A stretch of DNA of 64,000 nucleotides, taken from NCBI GenBank assembly GCA_903813345.2, contig CAIIXF020000007.1, positions 31,359,564-31,423,563 of the forward strand, in the 5' to 3' direction. A program made the position numbers and the translations under genes. The stretch comes from Owenia fusiformis. Its lineage: Eukaryota > Annelida > Polychaeta > Sabellida > Oweniidae. Each line of letters starts with the position of its first letter. Position 1 is the first letter of the stretch. The notes under the pieces were generated by a model, which did not search any database, was not told the origin of the DNA, and was given only the letters and a program-made list of their open reading frames with translations. Positions 2,516 to 51,163 of this stretch are shown one piece after another.

Positions 2516-5500
2516 TACATTTCAATATTTGCTTAAACCCCCAACCCTACAGACCAATGTTCAAGAATATGTGTACATTTCAGTGTTCTTGAACTTCAGT
2601 TGTCAAATTCTTGTCATCTGCAATATGTTTGGTATAAGATTTACTTCTAAAAATAAAACTCCACCACAACGTTTATCTGAATAACAAAATCTTGAAAGAT
2701 TCTCTTGAAATCCTCCCAACTATGCTGCATGAGCATTTTGAGAGAAAAATATGCTAGAAATATGAGCTGAGAAATGCTGTTCTTCTAAGGAAATTGCTTT
2801 AAGAAAAATCAATATTAGGGGCTAATCTCTTTCATTCCTTCATACATATTTGCCACGAGAATAAGCCAATACGCGATAACTGTTTAGTTTAGTTCAGTTT
2901 AGTTACCTCACGTTTGAAGAGCTCTCATGAGAGGTACAACTTCGTCTACATCCGGGTTCTTTCCCATTGGATTACACAGGAGTGTGATTTTCAATGCCGC
3001 GCTACGGCTTTATTAAACATTTATGTAGAGTTGCATTTGCACAAATGATAGGTATATATGTAATTAAGATATATAACAAGCCTTTTTGAACTATAATCCC
3101 CGAATCCGAAGAAATCTGTGGTTGAAAATGCCGTCCAATTCCAGTGACGTCACTGATTTCCCAGAAATTGCTCAGACGACATCTAAGATCGAAAAAATAT
3201 AAATAATGTTACTTTGAATCTCCGATTATCTTTCTGATTATTGAATAGATTGAATCATATAACTATGATTGAGGGCTGATGGAAGATCAGAAGCTGGGAA
3301 ACGTCCAGAGTATTCTACTCGTTCGGCGGGCCAATGAAAATTTGTCCCTTCCAAAGCGATGCATCATGGGAGATATTTATGTAAATTACCACCTGAACTC
3401 TTATCGCGAATAGGAGTATTGATAATGGCTTTTTGCTTGATAAATTAAGGAAATATCATCTTAACTGGTCAGAATAATTATTGCAGTCATGCATATTTTG
3501 CGACTGGAGGAATTATCAGTTGGAATTAACAACTTGCAAGTTGTTGTTCTTTATCAAGGTGTTTTCAAACCGAGATTCAAACATGACCGTGCTCTATTCG
3601 AATTGAAGACTGGCTTGGAAAAATAAATACACATTCTTGTTTTTGCATGGGCAAAGAGTTTCGAAATTCTATACAGTTTTTTTCAGAAAATGTATTTTTG
3701 CTTGCATCTTATATATATCTTATATCATATATCAATATCTTATATATATTATGAGGTTGTATAATGGTTCTTTCTGTATATCGTTTTTATATTCGAGTGA
3801 GTATATGATATATTCACAAGTGAGCGTATGCTTTTCATTAAGAAAAATGACTGTCTACTGACTCCTTCATTCAAACATATTTGAAAATTAACTCAAATCC
3901 TTTCTGCTAAAGATCACATTTAAATGAATATTTTTCTTTGCTAGAGCTGACTGATAATTTAAGTCAGTTCCATCTCTATTATTTCACTCCTAGATACGTG
4001 GCTGCATTTCTGACGTGCGATATTGATTCAATTTTTGTAATGTCAAAAGCTGTTATCATTTCTAATATATCAAACAGGAAATTCAGTTTTCTTGGTTATT
4101 TTAAGATGTGATAAATGTCAAAGATTAGCCTCAAGTGCCAATGTACTAGGATGGAACCCACATCCAATGTGACAGAGATTAGAGCAAAAGATATGAAACT
4201 CATTTGGAACAATAATTATAATTCTTTAAGAGTAATGCTTATACGACTAAGTTTTCATAATATTCCAAGAATTTCCAAAGATGGTAGAAAGCCTAGTCTT
4301 GCATTAAGACTCTGGTCTACCCCTCCCCCAGTACAGATCAGTATTTAGATGTTACTTTCTGCCATTTGCCCAAATACTAATGTAAATTCCATAGCTTCTT
4401 TATGACTCCAATATCTTCTTCCAAGACAACTGATAGCTTAACATGCAGATTGCCTTATTTCAGAAATACTTTAGGTTTTATAATCATTTATCTTAATAGT
4501 ATGTTTTATCTGTGAATGATCAATCACCCTTAAACACAAACAGACATTATCAATTTGACTTGAAAGACTAAACAATGTCAAATTTTCCCTGCCCCTTCAT
4601 GAATTGGCATCCCTTGCTTAACTTTCCTAAATCTATTTATTTATTCCATCATATGAATGACACCCATATATTATAGCCTATTATGTATGAGACATATATA
4701 TCTGTTTTATACTAAATCATTGGCATCAATTTTGGTTCATCTCATTCTCATACTAACCTTTATACAGGAGAATATGATTGACATTTATGGCTAACCACAT
4801 ATCACTTACCAATTTGACATTCGATCATTGAACGGTAAAACATGTTAAAAGTCAGTGCAGAAAAATGTGTGACACAAAACTTTCATAAATACAAAATTCA
4901 GAAAAATAAGATAATTCATCCTAATTTCACAGAGCATGAAAGAGAAATACATGTATATGATCAAAAAGATATTTCAAACTAGGCTAAGTGATGTGTTTAT
5001 TTTTAAGACCCTATGCAGCAGTAGGTTGGAGACAGAGTCAATGTAGATACAGTCTAGAATCATCTTAATCTATATATTTGCTACAGATTGCACCAAAATC
5101 TGATACTTAAAGGTGTTGAGAGGAAGTGTATAATACCAAAAGACCATAACAACTCAACATGCATATATAAACACTAACACAAGAATGACTCCTACAAACC
5201 TCCTTCCAGACTATAGAATTATAATAATTGGAACTTTGCCAAAATGTGCAGTCTCCTCCTTGAAATAATCAAACAAATTAATTACCATATTTTAAAAAGT
5301 AATGTTTAATTAACATCCATATGGGAAATCAGACTTAGGGTGTCTTGCAAGTATAACATTTAATATGTGATAAAGATGTTATAGCATGACTGACATATAT
5401 ATTGTTACAGACTCCAATCTCTGAACACTGCCTGCTGTCCACAAAAAAGTTGGAGACGCAAACAATAAAAAAAATACAAATCGATTGTATAGTTGCAATG

Positions 5501-24904: not shown

Positions 24905-26569
24905 TCATACTGGACTTTCTAGGCTTATGTCAACCATATATGTTTGGTGAGTATCTTCTTTGCTAGATGTAGGTCCATTTACCACTGGAGTACTACCATT
25001 GCTACTACTAGTATACCCCTTATTACATGCTCCAGGTGACACACTTTCTGTTTCTGAATATAGAGGGTGCTGCATTTGGTTCCCAGATGACCCACTTTCT
25101 GTATCTAAACATAGAGGGTGCTGGTGGTTGTGGAGGTACAATTTTGTTGTATGTGTATTCTGTGGTAGGGTTCTGGATGTCAGCATTGGGCTCTCTGATG
25201 TCAGATGTTTCTCATTGTTTATTAATGGCTGCTGACTGTCAATGGAGTATCTGTCAGGACTGGATAAGCATTCATGTTGAACTGGACCTTGAATTGTTTC
25301 TATAATTTTATAGTTAGCATTTGAGTGAGTAATAGTCATGTCAGATTCAGAAAATACTCTTTCGGGAGAAGATCCCTCCTTGAAACTTTTTTCTTGTGAT
25401 TTTAGTGCATGATTTTTGCAATAGAGGTCTCTAGTGTCATCCTCATGTTCAACAAGTGGATTTACAATCACTTGGCATTGGTCTGCATTCTTACTGTTCT
25501 TGCAACTTTTCAATTCAAAACTATCACATGAACTTGTTTCCATATTTTCCAACCTTTCTTTAGTATCTTTAGACCCAAAGTGATTTTCAATTTCAGCTAC
25601 CATTTTTCTAAGAAGTGACTTTGGTTTGCTGTGTACTTCAGCAATGATGAGGCTGTCATTACGATTGCGTTTAGAATTGAAATTCACAAGGGGCTTGTGT
25701 GAGGGGCTCCCAATGCTGTCATAGTCACTCTCTATGTCTGACGGCAAGCCTGATATACCATAATAGTCCCTGTTCATCTTCCCTGCATTGTCATTGGGTG
25801 ATTGGTTCAAGTTGACGGATCCCTCAGTGTCGCTCTCTGAGGTAGCACCAGGATTGTGAAGAACATGGCATTTTGATGTCATCACCATTTTCTCATATTG
25901 GTAGTCCTTTTCATCAAGCCAACGCCCAAATATGGATGAATCATGATCATCGATGTCGACAGCACTATATTTGCTACATGAACGTGTCATGCCATTGTCA
26001 ATAATGCTGTATTTGCTGGAAGAGCGACTAAAATTACTAAAATTACTAAAATTGTCAAATATGCTGTTTTTTCTGCTGAGCATACTCCCTCTTCTACTAC
26101 CTATTTCACTGTCCATTTCTGTTGCTGTCGCTGTTGCTTCAGAGGGAGTAACACTGTTCATTTCATAATCATCTTGCTCACTTTTTTGTAGGGAAAATAC
26201 AGTATTGCGTTTTTTACAGAATACAACCACTGCCCCAGAAATTGTCAGAGTAAAGAACAGGAAGATACTTGCAATGACAACGATCACTGTGAAATGACTG
26301 TCACTTGCATTAGTATTGAATTCGTGCATCATTCTTGTCCTAGATTTCTTAAGGAAAGCATTCTGCATGGTGTAAGTGTAATTGGTTGTTACGTTTCTCA
26401 TGTTAACATCTTCCCAGTAGTATCGATGATATGTAAATGTACTCTGATTCTTTGAAAGTCGTGGTATATTTGACGTTGATCGCATCCCATATGGAGGATG
26501 GTGACGCTGACGTTTGTAGGCAGAATCACCATGGTGATGGCGGTGCTGAGCTGTGTGCGTTTCCATCAT
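24905..26569 (-). CDS. Single-pass membrane protein with N-glycosylatable ectodomain and long Ser-rich tail, family unknown
   Basis: An uninterrupted 554-codon frame starts at ATGATG (26569). The frame extends two codons further to a GTG, and an in-frame TGA lies upstream at 26590-26588. Residues about 1-90 are hydrophilic with four N-glycosylation sequons (near 41, 59, 63 and 87). Residues about 93-117 form one transmembrane helix followed by KKR. The rest is a Ser/Asp/Asn-rich tail with basic phosphorylation-like sites (RRGS, RKNS), a triple NFS repeat (NFSNFSNFS), duplicated SKYS(I/A) blocks and two HPL..(D/E)TES repeats near the end. The last residues, ESPV, fit a class I PDZ ligand. There is no N-terminal signal peptide in this frame, so either the helix is a signal anchor or an upstream exon supplies one (see 27875-28045). 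I do not recognise the family. It lies antisense to CEP78, probably within one of its introns. Confidence 0.8.
   Translation of the reverse strand: MMETHTAQHRHHHGDSAYKRQRHHPPYGMRSTSNIPRLSKNQSTFTYHRYYWEDVNMRNVTTNYTYTMQNAFLKKSRTRMMHEFNTNASDSHFTVIVVIASIFLFFTLTISGAVVVFCKKRNTVFSLQKSEQDDYEMNSVTPSEATATATEMDSEIGSRRGSMLSRKNSIFDNFSNFSNFSRSSSKYSIIDNGMTRSCSKYSAVDIDDHDSSIFGRWLDEKDYQYEKMVMTSKCHVLHNPGATSESDTEGSVNLNQSPNDNAGKMNRDYYGISGLPSDIESDYDSIGSPSHKPLVNFNSKRNRNDSLIIAEVHSKPKSLLRKMVAEIENHFGSKDTKERLENMETSSCDSFELKSCKNSKNADQCQVIVNPLVEHEDDTRDLYCKNHALKSQEKSFKEGSSPERVFSESDMTITHSNANYKIIETIQGPVQHECLSSPDRYSIDSQQPLINNEKHLTSESPMLTSRTLPQNTHTTKLYLHNHQHPLCLDTESGSSGNQMQHPLYSETESVSPGACNKGYTSSSNGSTPVVNGPTSSKEDTHQTYMVDISLESPV
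25035..25122 (-). repeat. Duplicated ~48-bp segment inside the membrane-protein ORF
   Basis: Two copies of a segment containing CACTTTCTGTNTCTNAANAT and AGAGGGTGCTG lie side by side and keep the reading frame. They encode the two HPL...TES repeats of the C-terminal tail. Confidence 0.7.
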
Positions 26570-27874
26570 TGCCACAAAGATTTTGGATCAATAGTGGTGC
26601 TCATAAATATTACAGATACAAATGTCCACTTCAATGCCAAACCTTGTTCACATTTATTCAGTTTACGATATTAATGTTTGATGTCGTGTATCACCTTTCA
26701 TCAGTAGAATCCTCACTGCTTGTAATTTGTATTCCAAGTATGTCTGACTTATGAAATCATAAAATCTTTCTATCTATCTAGATTGGCTGATTCCCATAAA
26801 TAACCTTCATTTCATAACTTGTCAATGTAATGGGACCTGTCACGGTGATAAATATAACATCTACTCTCACGTCTCCACTTCTCAGTTAATCTGAGTAAAT
26901 TCTCACTGAATCTAATCAGGGTGTCAGCTAATTAAATAGTGGCTTTAATTTGGAACGTCCACTTTCTGTTGAATAATCACATTTGTATTCTCTAATATTT
27001 TACTTTCTTTGAATACTTTTCATGATTAACTAATTTTGTCTGATGATATTTGGTCAGAGTCCCATCTGATGAATTCTATCAATATCATCTAATGTTTCAT
27101 TGGGTTTATGTCTATTTGTGTGCCAATAATCCTGGCTTGCCCTTCCAGTTAAAACAACTCGATTGCTAATGAACATTTAAAGGCGGCCTTTTGCTGTTAA
27201 TTTGCAACCAGTGGAGCGTATTATCAGTCCACTTTCTTGTGACGTCTCAATTATCCCCTAGAAATCCATCCATCATTTTGATAGCTCACTCCACTCGAGA
27301 AGTTCCTGATCTCCACCGTGAATATAGTTTTGACAGATTTTGACAAATGATTCATCAGATTGCAGTCAGTCTATCTGTATAAAGAGACAATGTTGCAGCA
27401 AATTCCCTGTTGGAGCTTTTCTTTGAATTGAAGAAATGATCTGGAATTCAAATACGCCGCACTGCACCGTGCTGCTGTAATGCACTTTCCAAACCTCAAT
27501 GAGAAGTCAGATGTAACAGCATTAGCCAATCAGTAACCAATTTAGGTGTTTTATCGAATTGTGCGCCTATTTAGATCGCATGATTAGACAGAAATGGCTG
27601 ATTAGTTGACTGATTCACTCGTCAGTTGTGATCGCATTAGCTTTAATTTCGTGACAAAGGAATAGCACAAAAGCAGTCTTAAAGAATTAACACATAAATT
27701 CAATCACTCGTTTGAAATTGGCGTATCCATAGTAAAAATAAACAGTCTCCGTAGTCAATGGAATAAAAAGTGTGTTTTTGTTTTAAAATAGCAAGAAGCT
27801 TTGAGAAGATATCAATTTGTTTAATCCAGATCTGAAAGGGCCTTTTCAAATCAGTTAATTGTCCTCTATTCTAC
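26570..27874. other. Upstream region of the minus-strand membrane-protein ORF
   Basis: No exon is clearly recognised. The interval 26760-27660 is rich in CACTTTC, GATTAATT and TGATTAGT-type words and is less repetitive than its surroundings. It could be 5' UTR, promoter or conserved non-coding DNA, but nothing in it decides this. Confidence 0.4.
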
Positions 27875-45385: not shown

Positions 45386-45604
45386 TATGTGTTTACTTTG
45401 TAAACATTGTTTATAAATAAATGTTAGTAAGGCCAGCCATAGCTTCGGCTCCGCCCACACTGTCACTCTGTAATTGTCAATCACTGAACAGTCGTTCCGC
45501 AACGTTCCAAACAATTGAACATCCATTCTATCTTAAGATATCATTCATTCAGTTTTTCGAAGTAGCGAACGACACAACGAGATTCAAACATTTTTCAAAG
45601 TTGA
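45386..45604 (+). repeat. Split direct repeat A1 of the Ngaro-like element
   Basis: This begins with the 17-bp inverted repeat TGTTTACTTTGTAAACA (45390-45406), followed by TTTATAAATA and a GC-richer CTTCGGCTCCGCCCAC block that could be promoter or leader sequence. A2 (50259-50477) is the same apart from one visible base (CAATCACTG against CAATCGCTG). Confidence 0.9.
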
Positions 45605-45628
45605 TTATTCATCACAAACACAAATATC

Positions 45629-46735
45629 ATGCCACCTAAAAAACGACGTATTTCCTATCCTTCATCAGAACATATGAAGGAAGAATTGTCAGACATAGGG
45701 ATAAAGATTAAGAAAAAGATTTCGCTCACAGCGTTGAGAAACTTGTATATGGACAATGTTATGAATGATGACGCTAACGACGGGATTATACCATCCGAGG
45801 AGCAGGATGAAATCGAAATCGGCCCTATCGTACCTCCCGTACCAGTAATGTCTGAAGAAAGAAGAATTATCAAGGATCTTGAAAATAAGGTCGAAAATCT
45901 TACTGACGTCGTGAGTTCCCTTGTTAACCAACAGAACATACCGTTCGCTGCTGGCTCAGCTGAGCAAATAGAGAATTCGGCGGCGATAGAGCCCAGACCA
46001 CGAGATGGATCATCATCAGCAGGCCTCGGTTCCAAAGGTATTCACCCGAATTCTTTACCTATTGTAGACATTATTTCACCCGGGGTAAGAAAGGCGATAC
46101 AATCCGGGAAATATGTCAACTTAGCATGTTTGCTAGTGCCGTATTACGAACTTTCGAAAACACCAGCATTAGATACGGATGATGACGGAAAACTCTGTCT
46201 GAAGCCCATCAACATGGACAATGACCCAAAGCTTAAAGTCTCTCTTAACATCGCCGAATTTATCACAGCGTTTGACAAGTATAAAAGGGTGATGTGTGAA
46301 AAATTCCCAGGAAGACGCGATGAGCTTGATAGATACCAGCATGGTATTTTAGAACTTTATAACTCCTACCCTGGCCCAAAATTCTACGAGTACCATAAGC
46401 GTTTCAGTTCCCAGGCATGCGCTGCCTGGATAAATCTGCAAATAAAGGTCGATTGGGGCTGCAGAAATTCGGACTTATGGCAACTTGTACTGAATAGTAA
46501 GATCGGCGACAACGTCAAGACACATGTTAGCTCTTCGTCAACAGGAAGCAACATGCTCAACCGCTCAAAGGATATGAGAGGCCGCTCTATACAACGCAAA
46601 GATGGCAGGGAGATTTGTAATAATTTCAATAGTTCCCGTGGTTGCACATATGCAGATTGCAATAGAGCACACGTTACAAAACAAACGTCTGAAACCGCTG
46701 ATGTCAATTCCGTAACTAAAAGTGGAAATAACTGA
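45629..46735 (+). CDS. Gag-like protein of the Ngaro-like element, CCCH zinc knuckle
   Basis: 368 codons. The N-terminus is basic (PPKKRR), and residues about 75-105 look like a coiled coil. The middle (about 145-300) is the conserved unknown region typical of DIRS/Ngaro ORF1. Near the end, C330-x8-C339-x4-C344-x3-H348 forms a CCCH-type zinc motif (ICNNFN...GCTYADCNRAH) that probably binds the element's RNA. The likely role is RNA packaging. The ATG follows repeat A1 by 24 bases. The stop at 46733-46735 is 15 bases before the next ATG, in a different frame, so downstream translation must use reinitiation, splicing or frameshifting. Confidence 0.85.
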   Translation: MPPKKRRISYPSSEHMKEELSDIGIKIKKKISLTALRNLYMDNVMNDDANDGIIPSEEQDEIEIGPIVPPVPVMSEERRIIKDLENKVENLTDVVSSLVNQQNIPFAAGSAEQIENSAAIEPRPRDGSSSAGLGSKGIHPNSLPIVDIISPGVRKAIQSGKYVNLACLLVPYYELSKTPALDTDDDGKLCLKPINMDNDPKLKVSLNIAEFITAFDKYKRVMCEKFPGRRDELDRYQHGILELYNSYPGPKFYEYHKRFSSQACAAWINLQIKVDWGCRNSDLWQLVLNSKIGDNVKTHVSSSSTGSNMLNRSKDMRGRSIQRKDGREICNNFNSSRGCTYADCNRAHVTKQTSETADVNSVTKSGNN

Positions 46736-46750
46736 CTAGAACCTAATCTC

Positions 46751-48358
46751 ATGGTAGCGTCCACTCCTGTAAACGTCAAAAAATTAGCATCCGAGTTAAA
46801 AATGCACCCAGACGAAAACTTCGTGCAATATCTTTGTACTGGACTTACAAACGGATTTGACACCATGGTTAGCGAAATTCAATTGCCGACACTCGAATGC
46901 CGTAACCTTCTTTCGGCTAGGAAACAACCGGAGGCAACTACGGAGTTATTAAAGAAGGAACTAGAAAAAGGATATGTTCTCGGCCCTTTCAAAACACCTC
47001 CCTTTAAAACGTTTAGGGTAAGTCCAGTCGGCATAGCAGTTGGAAAATATTCTAACAAAAAACGGCTTATTGTTGACCTGTCGTCACCCCACGATGATTC
47101 CGATTCTGAAAGTATAAACGATCTCATAGACAAAAACGCATGTTCTCTAAGCTATGTTACCATAGATGATGCGATTAGGGGGATTATTAAAAGAGGCCGT
47201 AAATCAATGATGTGTAAATTCGACATCCAGGATGCTTTTAAAATCATCCCTATTGATCCAAGGCAATGGCATCTTTTCTGTGTAAAATGGATGGGAAACT
47301 ACTACGTGTGTCCACGGCTGTGTTTCGGATGCAGATCATCGCCAAAAATCTTTGACAATATATCTCAGGCAGTATGTTGGATCGCGGAGCACAAATATAA
47401 CGTCGATTTTGTAATACACCTCTTGGACGATTTTCTAACAATCGACGGTGATCCCGATACCGGTCTTAGAACCATGGCCATTATGACACAGATTTTTAAC
47501 GTACTTAAAATCCCCCTTGCCGCCCACAAATGCCTGGGACCTACAACATGCATCGAATACTTGGGAATCATTCTAGATTCGGATAAAATGGAAGCGCGGC
47601 TACCAGAGGATAAGATACAGCGCATCGTTATTTTTATGAAGGATATCATTGATAAAAGACGCTGTACTAAAAAGGAGCTGCTACAGCTACTCGGACATTT
47701 GAACTTTGCTTCAAGAGTTATCAAACCGGGACGTTCTTTTGTCTCTTATCTTATCAAGCTATCCACGACAGTCAAAGAAATGTTCTCATTGGTTTCACTC
47801 GATAGGCATTGCATTGAAGATCTAACAATGTGGAAATATTTCCTATTACAATGGAACGGTGTTAATATGTTCTATGATCACTTTTCCTCCTTGTCATCGG
47901 ATATAAGCCTTCACACCGACGCGTCATCTACGCTTGGCTTCGGTGGTATCTACCAGAATCAGTATTTTTACTCAATGTGGCCTAGATTACCCGACGTCGA
48001 GCGTGGCGACCTGTCGATGGCTTTTCTAGAGTTATATCCCGTGGTAGTTGCGGCTATACTATGGTCACATCTATGGGTTCAGAAACATGTAATTTTCGTT
48101 TGTGACAACGAAGCAACAGTTGCTATTATTAACAAAGGTAGATCGAAATCTCTGCCTATCATGAAACTTATGAGAAACCTGACGTGGTTAGCTTGTAAGC
48201 ATAACTATTATTTTCACGCAAAACACATACCAGGAAAATACAACATTTTAGCCGATGCTCTTTCTCGATTGCAGGTAACTCGCTTCAGAGAATTGGCACC
48301 ATGGACCGAACGAGACCCCCTCCCCTGCCCGGATCCCTTGGCAGTGCTGTGGGCGTAA
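46751..48358 (+). CDS. Reverse transcriptase-RNase H of the Ngaro-like element
   Basis: 535 codons. RT motifs in order: KKRLIVDLS (103-111), CKFDIQDAF with Asp158, CPRLCFGCRSSPKIF (187-201), and the catalytic box HLLDDFL (Asp226, Asp227; LLDD in place of YxDD). LGHLNFASR, typical of DIRS-order RTs, follows at 314-322. RNase H comes next: HTDASSTLGFGG (Asp390), FLELYPVV (Glu427), CDNEATV (Asp452) and HIPGKYNILADALSR (Asp502). All catalytic residues are present. It would copy element RNA into DNA. There is no protease or DDE integrase. The last 58 bases overlap the recombinase ORF in another frame, a common arrangement in this group. Confidence 0.94.
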   Translation: MVASTPVNVKKLASELKMHPDENFVQYLCTGLTNGFDTMVSEIQLPTLECRNLLSARKQPEATTELLKKELEKGYVLGPFKTPPFKTFRVSPVGIAVGKYSNKKRLIVDLSSPHDDSDSESINDLIDKNACSLSYVTIDDAIRGIIKRGRKSMMCKFDIQDAFKIIPIDPRQWHLFCVKWMGNYYVCPRLCFGCRSSPKIFDNISQAVCWIAEHKYNVDFVIHLLDDFLTIDGDPDTGLRTMAIMTQIFNVLKIPLAAHKCLGPTTCIEYLGIILDSDKMEARLPEDKIQRIVIFMKDIIDKRRCTKKELLQLLGHLNFASRVIKPGRSFVSYLIKLSTTVKEMFSLVSLDRHCIEDLTMWKYFLLQWNGVNMFYDHFSSLSSDISLHTDASSTLGFGGIYQNQYFYSMWPRLPDVERGDLSMAFLELYPVVVAAILWSHLWVQKHVIFVCDNEATVAIINKGRSKSLPIMKLMRNLTWLACKHNYYFHAKHIPGKYNILADALSRLQVTRFRELAPWTERDPLPCPDPLAVLWA

Positions 48359-49341
48359 ATAAACACCTTTCTATTCTATGGGATAAAAGCATAGGCGAAA
48401 ATACTAAATCTGTTTATAACCAGGGATTGCGCGCCTACAAACGGTTTCTATATACACATGCAGTTCCATTAGACAATGATTTACGTTTGCCTCCAATTTC
48501 AGAAGACATTATTCTAAGATTCATTTCGTGGTGCCATCTCCAAAAATTGAAACACGCTACAATAAGACTGTATTTAGCAGGTATTCGACATTATTATCTT
48601 AAACAGAATATCGTGAATCCATTTCATTCCGTCGATGGCTCTCTAGGCTCAAGAATACAAACAATATTAAAGACAATTCTCAAATTACAGGACAAAATGG
48701 GACCAACTAGACTTCCCATTACACACGATATTTTAATTCGGTTGTGTACAATGCACAACAACTATGGTGGCATGGGATATACAGAGCTCATGCTAAAAGC
48801 TTCCTACACGTTTGCATTTTTCGGTTTCCTTAGATGTGGGGAATTTACATGTCAAAATGTGTTCGACAATAACATACATCTCACTATGGGGGATGTCACC
48901 TTCTATCACGACAAACTATCTATTAACTTAAAACGTTCTAAAGCGGATGTAATACATAAAGGTGTTTTGATATGGATTTACGCAAACGATAATAAACACA
49001 CCTGTCCAGTTGACGCCGCAAAACAATATTTAAACATGCGATGTCTCTTTCACGGACGTCGATCGAATGATTCATTCTTCTTGACTTTTGATGGTGAGCC
49101 ATTGAAGCGAGCCGTGTTTAATAACCATCTTAAAAGTGATATTCAACGACTGGGTTTGAATGCGGATAATTTTAGCCCACATTCCTTTCGAATAGGCGCT
49201 GCTAGTAGTGCCAAATACGCCCACTTAGGAGATAGCATCATCATGTCATTGGGGAGGTGGTCTAGTGACTCATACAGGCGATATATAAGACCAAATCAAG
49301 ATACCATGAAGCACGCCCAGAACGCAATGGCTCATGTTTAA
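48301..49341 (+). CDS. Tyrosine recombinase of the Ngaro-like element
   Basis: 346 codons. The SAM-like N-terminal part (about 24-135; TIRLYLAGIRHYY) would hold DNA. The catalytic domain has Arg178 (FLRCGEF), a Lys in KRSKAD (214), H294-x-x-R297 (HSFRIGAAS), Trp320 in LGRWSSD in place of the second His, and a nucleophile Tyr, most likely Y328 in SYRRYIR. This set matches DIRS/Ngaro/Crypton recombinases, which integrate a circular DNA copy by strand exchange. The ORF begins inside the RT end. The first ATG (48301) is followed by a Pro-rich stretch, so the real start could be an internal site or a frameshift fusion. Confidence 0.93.
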   Translation: MDRTRPPPLPGSLGSAVGVNKHLSILWDKSIGENTKSVYNQGLRAYKRFLYTHAVPLDNDLRLPPISEDIILRFISWCHLQKLKHATIRLYLAGIRHYYLKQNIVNPFHSVDGSLGSRIQTILKTILKLQDKMGPTRLPITHDILIRLCTMHNNYGGMGYTELMLKASYTFAFFGFLRCGEFTCQNVFDNNIHLTMGDVTFYHDKLSINLKRSKADVIHKGVLIWIYANDNKHTCPVDAAKQYLNMRCLFHGRRSNDSFFLTFDGEPLKRAVFNNHLKSDIQRLGLNADNFSPHSFRIGAASSAKYAHLGDSIIMSLGRWSSDSYRRYIRPNQDTMKHAQNAMAHV

Positions 49342-49650
49342 TGGGACGATTCGCATGGTGATATCAGGGTTACGATCACAATCATATAAATTACGCATTT
49401 CACTACAGCGTTAGGTGTTCACTTCTAACATGTCATAGCAAACAATTTTTAATTTAATAGTCGGCAGGGTACTGCGATTAAGGTTTGAGCGATTGTGACC
49501 TGCATATTACTTAATTAATAAATATAAATACAACTAAAGAAACAAACAATAAGAAAAAATATTTACTTTCTTGGGGCTCTCATTTTTCCAATTCATTGCA
49601 ATGTTTCACCATTATTCTACTGTTGTAAACTTCAAAATGGAAAAATGATA

Positions 49651-50258
49651 TGGCATTCACACTCATTACTTCGTTCTAACCCCCAAGTAATTTCACACTC
49701 TCATTTTTCGGCAGTATTTTATGTCTAAATTACCCATCTTCCGTACTTTGCGGGAGATCTCTCCATGGGGCTATCTACCGCACTATTCGTCTTGGGAGTC
49801 AGGTCTTCGCGATCTACCAAGCATGGTCGGGAGTCAGATACCCCTTTAGTCATCGTGGGGCTATCTACCGCACTATTCGTCTTGGGAGTCAGGTCTTCGC
49901 GATCTACCAAGCATGGTCGGGAGTCAGATACCTCACCACCCATTTTCTATCATGGGAGCTATCTACTGGGCATATTCGTTTGTCTGATCAGCAGCATGTG
50001 TACAGGAGTCAGATACCCCTCTTTACGTAATACTTCATTACGTAACGTCATTAATTACCGTATTCTTGAACAAGAATGACTTTGAATGCCACTTTATACA
50101 ATAGCGCGTATGATTAGCACCATATGCGCCCCAAGCCAAAGTAAATGTTAGGTTATTTTATTCTAGTTTTGTTTTATGTAAATATGTTATCTGTATGACT
50201 TTATGAATCATAAACATGTATGTCATTATCTCTATTTGATTGTTATGTTATTTATAAA
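49651..50258 (+). repeat. Split direct repeat B1, abutting A2
   Basis: 608 bp, matched by B2 at 50556-51163. It contains two 90-bp tandem copies (from about 49768 and 49858) of a unit with GGGGCTATCTACCGCACTAT and AAGCATGGTCGGGAGTCAGA. The frames on both strands there (72 and 104 codons) are repeat-derived. It ends TTATTTATAAA directly against A2. Confidence 0.9.
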
Positions 50259-50477
50259 TATGTGTTTACTTTGTAAACATTGTTTATAAATAAATGTTAG
50301 TAAGGCCAGCCATAGCTTCGGCTCCGCCCACACTGTCACTCTGTAATTGTCAATCGCTGAACAGTCGTTCCGCAACGTTCCAAACAATTGAACATCCATT
50401 CTATCTTAAGATATCATTCATTCAGTTTTTCGAAGTAGCGAACGACACAACGAGATTCAAACATTTTTCAAAGTTGA
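50259..50477 (+). repeat. Split direct repeat A2
   Basis: The copy of A1 that directly follows B1. The palindrome TGTTTACTTTGTAAACA is at 50263-50279, with TTTATAAATA on both sides (50251-50260 and about 50283-50292). After 50477 the sequence departs from A1 into a 78-bp spacer. Confidence 0.9.
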
Positions 50478-50555
50478 CCACCACCTCCCCACCTCCAATC
50501 CTTTTAAATGCTTTCTTTTGCCTTTATGATGTTTTCTCTTTACAATAGTAATTGT

Positions 50556-51163
50556 TGGCATTCACACTCATTACTTCGTTCTAACCCCCAAGTAATTTCA
50601 CACTCTCATTTTTCGGCAGTATTTTATGTCTAAATTACCCATCTTCCGTACTTTGCGGGAGATCTCTCCATGGGGCTATCTACCGCACTATTCGTCTTGG
50701 GAGTCAGGTCTTCGCGATCTACCAAGCATGGTCGGGAGTCAGATACCCCTTTAGTCATCGTGGGGCTATCTACCGCACTATTCGTCTTGGGAGTCAGGTC
50801 TTCGCGATCTACCAAGCATGGTCGGGAGTCAGATACCTCACCACCCATTTTCTATCATGGGAGCTATCTACTGGGCATATTCGTTTGTCTGATCAGCAGC
50901 ATGTGTACAGGAGTCAGATACCCCTCTTTACGTAATACTTCATTACGTAACGTCATTAATTACCGTATTCTTGAACAAGAATGACTTTGAATGCCACTTT
51001 ATACAATAGCGCGTATGATTAGCACCATATGCGCCCCAAGCCAAAGTAAATGTTAGGTTATTTTATTCTAGTTTTGTTTTATGTAAATATGTTATCTGTA
51101 TGACTTTATGAATCATAAACATGTATGTCATTATCTCTATTTGATTGTTATGTTATTTATAAA
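50556..51163 (+). repeat. Split direct repeat B2 (element 3' end)
   Basis: This matches B1 over its full 608 bp, including the two internal 90-bp tandem copies. It ends at TTATTTATAAA (51163), after which flanking DNA (CCATAGAATAT) begins. Confidence 0.9.

Follow-up and report, generated by a model that had tools for sequence, protein, structure and literature searches.

The 64,000-nucleotide stretch of Owenia fusiformis DNA analysed here (the window) contains a full-length tyrosine recombinase (YR) retrotransposon at 45386-51163, with the layout A1-[gag, RT/RNase H, YR]-B1-A2-B2 and all of its features on the forward strand. The 5' split direct repeat A1 (45386..45604, 219 bp) begins with TATGTG and includes the palindrome TGTTTAC-TTT-GTAAACA. 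Internally, B1 (49651..50258, 608 bp) directly adjoins A2 (50259..50477, 219 bp), with the recombination core AAAT at their junction (50256..50259), and a 78-bp spacer (50478..50555) separates A2 from the 3' split direct repeat B2 (50556..51163, 608 bp), which terminates in TTATAAA. A single difference was observed between A1 and A2 in 219 bp (A/G at 45483) and none between B1 and B2 over 608 bp, confirming to the base the split direct repeats that the sequence-only reading had described. Within B, a 90-bp unit is present in 1.9 perfect tandem copies (49766-49932 and 50671-50837), and the length of this array differs among copies of the element. The repeat arrangement is far beyond chance and was seen again in other copies. 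All repeats of the element are direct, the sole inverted pair being a 22-nt palindrome in gag.

The gag ORF (45629..46735, 368 aa from the ATG at 45629) encodes a CCCH zinc knuckle (46616-46672) whose residues C330, C339, C344 and H348 were invariant across 11 Gag sequences; the corresponding Pfam match to zf-CCCH (E 0.035) was under the curated cut-off. The AlphaFold model of Gag was weak (pLDDT 61, pTM 0.41), and no PDB match to the fold was found. The RT/RNase H ORF (46736..48358, 540 aa from stop to stop, first AUG at 46751) matched RVT_1 with an E-value of 3.8e-8 and contains FDIQDAF, LLDDF (catalytic DD at 47426-47431) and the RNase H acidic residues, with RNase H at its end followed by an overlap with YR. 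The YR ORF (48205..49341) lies in the -1 frame relative to RT, overlaps it by 154 nt; the AUG at 48301 lies in a favorable start context (GGCACCATGG). The YR match to Phage_integrase (E 3.9e-5) reached 23.9 bits, under the curated cut-off of 27.1. The catalytic codons begin at 48832 (R), 48940 (K), 49180 (H), 49189 (R), 49258 (W) and 49282 (Y), and the residues that they encode (R178, K214, H294xxR297, W320, Y328) were invariant in an alignment of 14 YRs, methyltransferase-bearing elements included. A Pfam profile search of the element for a Dam methyltransferase gave no match at E-values up to 1. The earlier description of three open ORFs with catalytic residues was upheld, since RT LLDDF, the RNase H acidic residues and YR R-K-HxxR-W-Y all align with those of relatives, and the ORFs and repeats together support its view of an apparently intact, recent YR retrotransposon. 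Elsewhere in the window, the reverse strand carries a 560-aa open frame (24908-26587) with no Pfam match.

Copies and insertion sites

A search for further copies recovered a second full-length one (contig C5, 97% identical), but its RT frame is broken, and no other copy both full-length and open was found in the host genome search, in which copy counts are lower bounds. The C5 copy also carries an insert of about 531 bp at element position 454-460 (L002:969-1500); with inverted ends (CATGGGCTTTCAA.. / ..TTGAAAGCCCATG) and a 7-bp target repeat, this is a small DNA transposon nested in gag. The C5 and window copies differ by 116 substitutions in about 5.3 kb. Within the C5 copy, A1 and A2 showed 0 differences in 225 bp, whereas a single substitution and a 5-bp gap stretch distinguished B1 from B2. 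Because the pairs within each copy are near-identical while the two copies differ, the repeat pairs are renewed at each insertion, as are LTRs, and the window insertion is recent, given that its paired repeats, 827 bp in total, differ at one position. Values of pN/pS between the two copies were 0.17 for gag, 0.23 for RT and 0.14 for YR. At the sequence level all three genes are thus under purifying selection, and with ratios this low the family was therefore copied through working proteins.

Several partial forms were observed. Three copies (L003, L006, L008) are internally deleted to A-x-B, and one on contig C292 (L004/L005) ends at a single B without A2-B2. Recombination between direct repeats, a process described for Cafeteria Ngaro (PMC8547959), could account for the single-B and A2-B2 forms. 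About ten copies have an exact right end of the recombinase type and a truncated left end, including L007, L009, L010, L011, L051, L053, L056 and L058. Their starts cluster in two narrow zones, element positions 4181-4227 (six copies) and 4961-4993 (three copies; positions 88-120 of A), which could mark sites where the RNA begins or result from integration at one end only. The sequences on either side of the truncated copy L053 are similar over about 50 bp (roughly 90%), as if derived from an ancient long duplication or a tandemly repeated target. In the C1 copy, the left flank and the first 117 bp of A1 occur twice in tandem, 565 bp apart (L003:4759-4881 and 4092-4316), as a local duplication or an assembly effect.

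The left flank of the window copy reads CTATAAT followed by TATGTG, and its right end TTATAAA is followed by CCATAG, giving a core of AAT at the left end and AAA at the right end, with one mismatch. Across copies, left ends were mostly aaa|TATGTG and right ends were TTATAAA|, with T as the next base in most. The flanks of the window copy have nothing in common beyond the 3-4 bp core, and the absence of a target duplication noted earlier therefore stands. No empty site was found for this copy with an intact site among the 40 candidates kept of 385. The copy on contig C10 (L008), however, sits within another interspersed repeat, seven copies of which serve as its empty sites; these are continuous across CATTAAA|TGGTTAAA, with not a single nucleotide missing or added. 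Read from the sequence, the empty sites indicate joining at a 3-4 bp AAA(T) core, as the recombinase model predicts, and they match what would be expected if a circle junction TTATAAAT|ATG recombined with a chromosomal AAA(T). A 3-bp circular junction has been described for DIRS1-like elements (PMC3266345) and agrees with the core seen here. Other copies, insertion ends and empty sites all agree with the recombinase-mediated insertion first proposed for the window copy.

Place within the order DIRS

The 498-Mb host genome contains many YR retrotransposons (at least 81 scored matches), some with a Dam-type methyltransferase fused after RT/RH, which served as a positive control. The RT/RH tree comprised 19 rows, all of them elements of this genome and none a named Ngaro, PAT or DIRS reference. 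A 100/100 branch separated the five methyltransferase rows from the other 14, among which the window element grouped with L016 and L019, also at 100/100. The name "Ngaro/PAT-like" given to the element at first sight was thus right in its first half; the second does not hold, given that the methyltransferase is absent and RT falls on the methyltransferase-less side of the tree. By published criteria (PMC4157794, PMC9210276, PMC8547959) its domain content and repeats identify the element as a Ngaro, the tree placing it relative to elements of its own genome only.

PAT membership was rejected on the lack of a methyltransferase and on an RT position distant from the methyltransferase-bearing elements. 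Loss of the methyltransferase in a PAT-like lineage of Caenorhabditis briggsae has been reported to produce a Ngaro mimic (PMC4157794), and the window element shares its repeat layout with echinoderm-form PAT and has a zinc knuckle in Gag. A similar origin here is nevertheless very improbable, as RT/RH lies among many methyltransferase-less families, across the 100/100 branch from the five methyltransferase rows, and a -1-frame YR directly after RT is common to methyltransferase-less families. DIRS1-like membership was also rejected: inverted terminal repeats and an internal complementary region are absent, and only direct repeats are present. A VIPER-like element, which would imply a kinetoplastid host and the VIPER RT clade, is unlikely because the host genome is 498 Mb with large chromosomes. 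No relatives were found in viral contigs. The element itself is an ordinary Ngaro, and its interest lies in the expression scheme.

Candidate signals at the gag-RT and RT-YR boundaries

Gag and RT form one frame broken by a single UGA (46733-46735; AAC UGA CUA GAA), so that the gag stop lies in the readthrough context UGA CUA G (46733..46739) with RT continuing in the same frame. The same organization was observed in four further families whose RT is about 52-63% identical to that of the window element. L016/L017/L020/L023 have AAU UGA CUG AUU, L019/L022 have CAA UGA CUC CAA, L067 has CAG UGA CUC UCU AUG and L065 has AAG UGA CUG AGA, each with RT in the gag frame; L021, a decayed sister of L067, has lost two bases. 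UGA-CUN and the shared frame were therefore kept in all five families of the clade, with CU after the UGA fixed, the third codon base varying (CUA, CUG, CUC, CUC, CUG) and the subsequent codons variable. The distance from the UGA to the conserved RT A(S/T)(T/P) is seven codons in four of the five.

A stimulating 3' RNA structure is not required for readthrough at UGA CUA, and nothing unusual was observed in the RNA structure beyond the UGA (z -0.2, +2.0, -1.3). In human cells the highest basal readthrough has been found at UGA CUA, above all when a G follows (PMC4359377, PMC12233894), and a CUU control was weak in a readthrough assay (PMC4359377). The CUG and CUC contexts are less well known than CUA as readthrough contexts. 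The conserved arrangement indicates that gag-pol is probably expressed through readthrough of the stop codon at UGA-CUN. No description of readthrough in YR retrotransposons was found in the open-licence literature.

Pol could instead be made without readthrough, either by ribosomes reinitiating at the AUG 15 nt downstream (46751) or from its own message. The window element and the L016 family have an AUG at this equal 15-nt distance past the UGA, L067 has one three codons after it, and the sequence flanking the UGA of Tca2 (gag-UGA-pol) alone gave no readthrough in yeast (PMC2194720). However, L019/L022 and L065 keep UGA-CUN and the frame with no AUG before the conserved RT N-terminus. Neither a shared frame nor CU after the UGA is needed for reinitiation, but all five families retain the two features, and we consider synthesis of Pol without readthrough unlikely. 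Readthrough remains the preferred reading for this clade, while in more distant Ngaro families of this genome, and in L075 and L076, RT lies in the +1 frame relative to gag and overlaps it; the gag-pol strategy therefore differs between clades. L075 and L076, which carry Ngaro gag-RT-YR, are contigs filed under an Escarpia laminata symbiont MAG and are probably host tubeworm DNA in a bacterial bin.

At the second boundary, every family whose ORFs are intact has YR in the -1 frame relative to RT, with an overlap of 55-151 nt, and in many families YR is without an AUG for 65-117 codons. At the point where YR becomes open, just past the RNase H LSR, each of the 14 families compared has a T-rich stretch and CAG. 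In the window element this is CTTTCTCGATTGCAG (48260..48274), with the AUG at 48301 lying 27 nt past the CAG (48274). From each family's own Gln usage, 14 CAG codons would occur by chance with a probability of about 1.7e-7, or 1.2e-4 when nine well separated lineages are counted. The boundary CAG had a median rank of 3 among about 115 AGs, although this test is partly confounded by the Leu-Ser-Arg codons. We accordingly propose the CAG behind the T-rich tract as a putative 3' splice acceptor used in expressing YR. Several splice donors were scored; none was convincing or consistently placed, and the best donors in the gag of the window element are out of frame.

The same codon might be kept merely by protein constraint on an LSR-x-Q motif at the RNase H end combined with chance codon choice. 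The Gln does belong to a loosely conserved motif, and the upstream T-richness is partly due to Leu-Ser-Arg codons. CAA encodes the same residue, yet CAG was used in 14 of 14 families at the boundary and in 11 of 34 cases at other Gln columns, and two families without Gln at the aligned column (L028, L035) have TTTCAG three codons later. We regard constraint as a serious competitor but one that is rather less likely than not to account for the pattern. Expression of YR by -1 ribosomal frameshifting inside the overlap, in place of splicing, would suit the constant -1 frame and overlap, and in-frame slippery-like heptamers occur in L024, L032, L041 and L016. Such a heptamer is absent from the window element and eight other families, whereas no family is without the CAG and its T-rich tract, and the AUG at 48301 gives the window element a start codon in a favorable context. 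Frameshifting is accordingly improbable, and in-frame slippery heptamers were rejected as a general YR signal, not being common to the families.

A model of expression and integration, and known systems

We favor, with a probability of roughly 0.8, an explanation in which the locus is a young, apparently autonomous Ngaro-like YR retrotransposon with a probable readthrough Gag-Pol and a YR that is most likely expressed by splicing. Its anatomy, its insertion at an AAA(T) core and its membership by RT and domain content are read from sequence directly. In the proposed cycle the element RNA would be reverse transcribed by its own RT/RH, and the internal B1-A2 junction would template joining of the ends into a putative circle with the core TTATAAAT|ATG. 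The tyrosine recombinase would then recombine this core with a chromosomal AAA(T), so that the new copy would lack a target duplication and carry newly made, identical A and B pairs. Pol would probably arise as part of a Gag-Pol fusion when ribosomes read through the one stop codon of gag (UGA CUA G), and YR would most likely be translated from its separate -1-frame ORF, starting at AUG 48301 on a message spliced at the CAG (48274).

More generally, we tentatively suggest, at slightly less than even odds, that this is a Ngaro clade with programmed UGA-CUN readthrough whose sister families use another frame, and that across Ngaro elements in general the recombinase is translated from a spliced mRNA with its acceptor in the coding end of RNase H. 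The literature that we found gives no settled account of how a single RNA of a YR retrotransposon yields Gag, Pol and recombinase in a set ratio. Two concrete signals (UGA CUA G at 46733 and CAG at 48274) are kept across families and present in a young element, and the conserved leaky stop suggests a route to the second protein that we did not find described for this group. The clade also displays a switch of gag-pol strategy among close relatives, and the insertion ends and empty sites allow the core used by the recombinase of an animal Ngaro to be read directly.

Among known systems, the element is most readily compared with the Ngaro superfamily (PMC8547959, PMC9210276, PMC4157794), with which it shares A1-[ORFs]-B1A2B2, gag, RT/RH and YR, no methyltransferase and no target duplication; isolated AB pieces have likewise been described in Cafeteria. 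Unlike described Ngaro elements, its gag and RT share a frame that one UGA-CUN interrupts and it has a possible acceptor for YR, and unlike amphibian Ngaro it is without an SGNH hydrolase ORF. It shares a zinc knuckle in Gag with PAT-like elements (Pat1, echinoderm form), but these have a Dam-type methyltransferase after RT/RH and a distant RT. With DIRS1-like elements it shares YR and integration at a 3-bp circular junction (AAA, AAT and AAC types) with no target duplication (PMC3266345), but not their inverted terminal repeats, internal complementary region or methyltransferase. The closest parallel to its gag-pol boundary is found in gammaretroviruses and Candida Tca2 (PMC2194720), which likewise have gag and pol in one frame with one stop codon between them. 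Those gag-stop-pol retroelements differ in being LTR elements with a DDE integrase, often with a downstream pseudoknot, a structure that is not evident in the window element.
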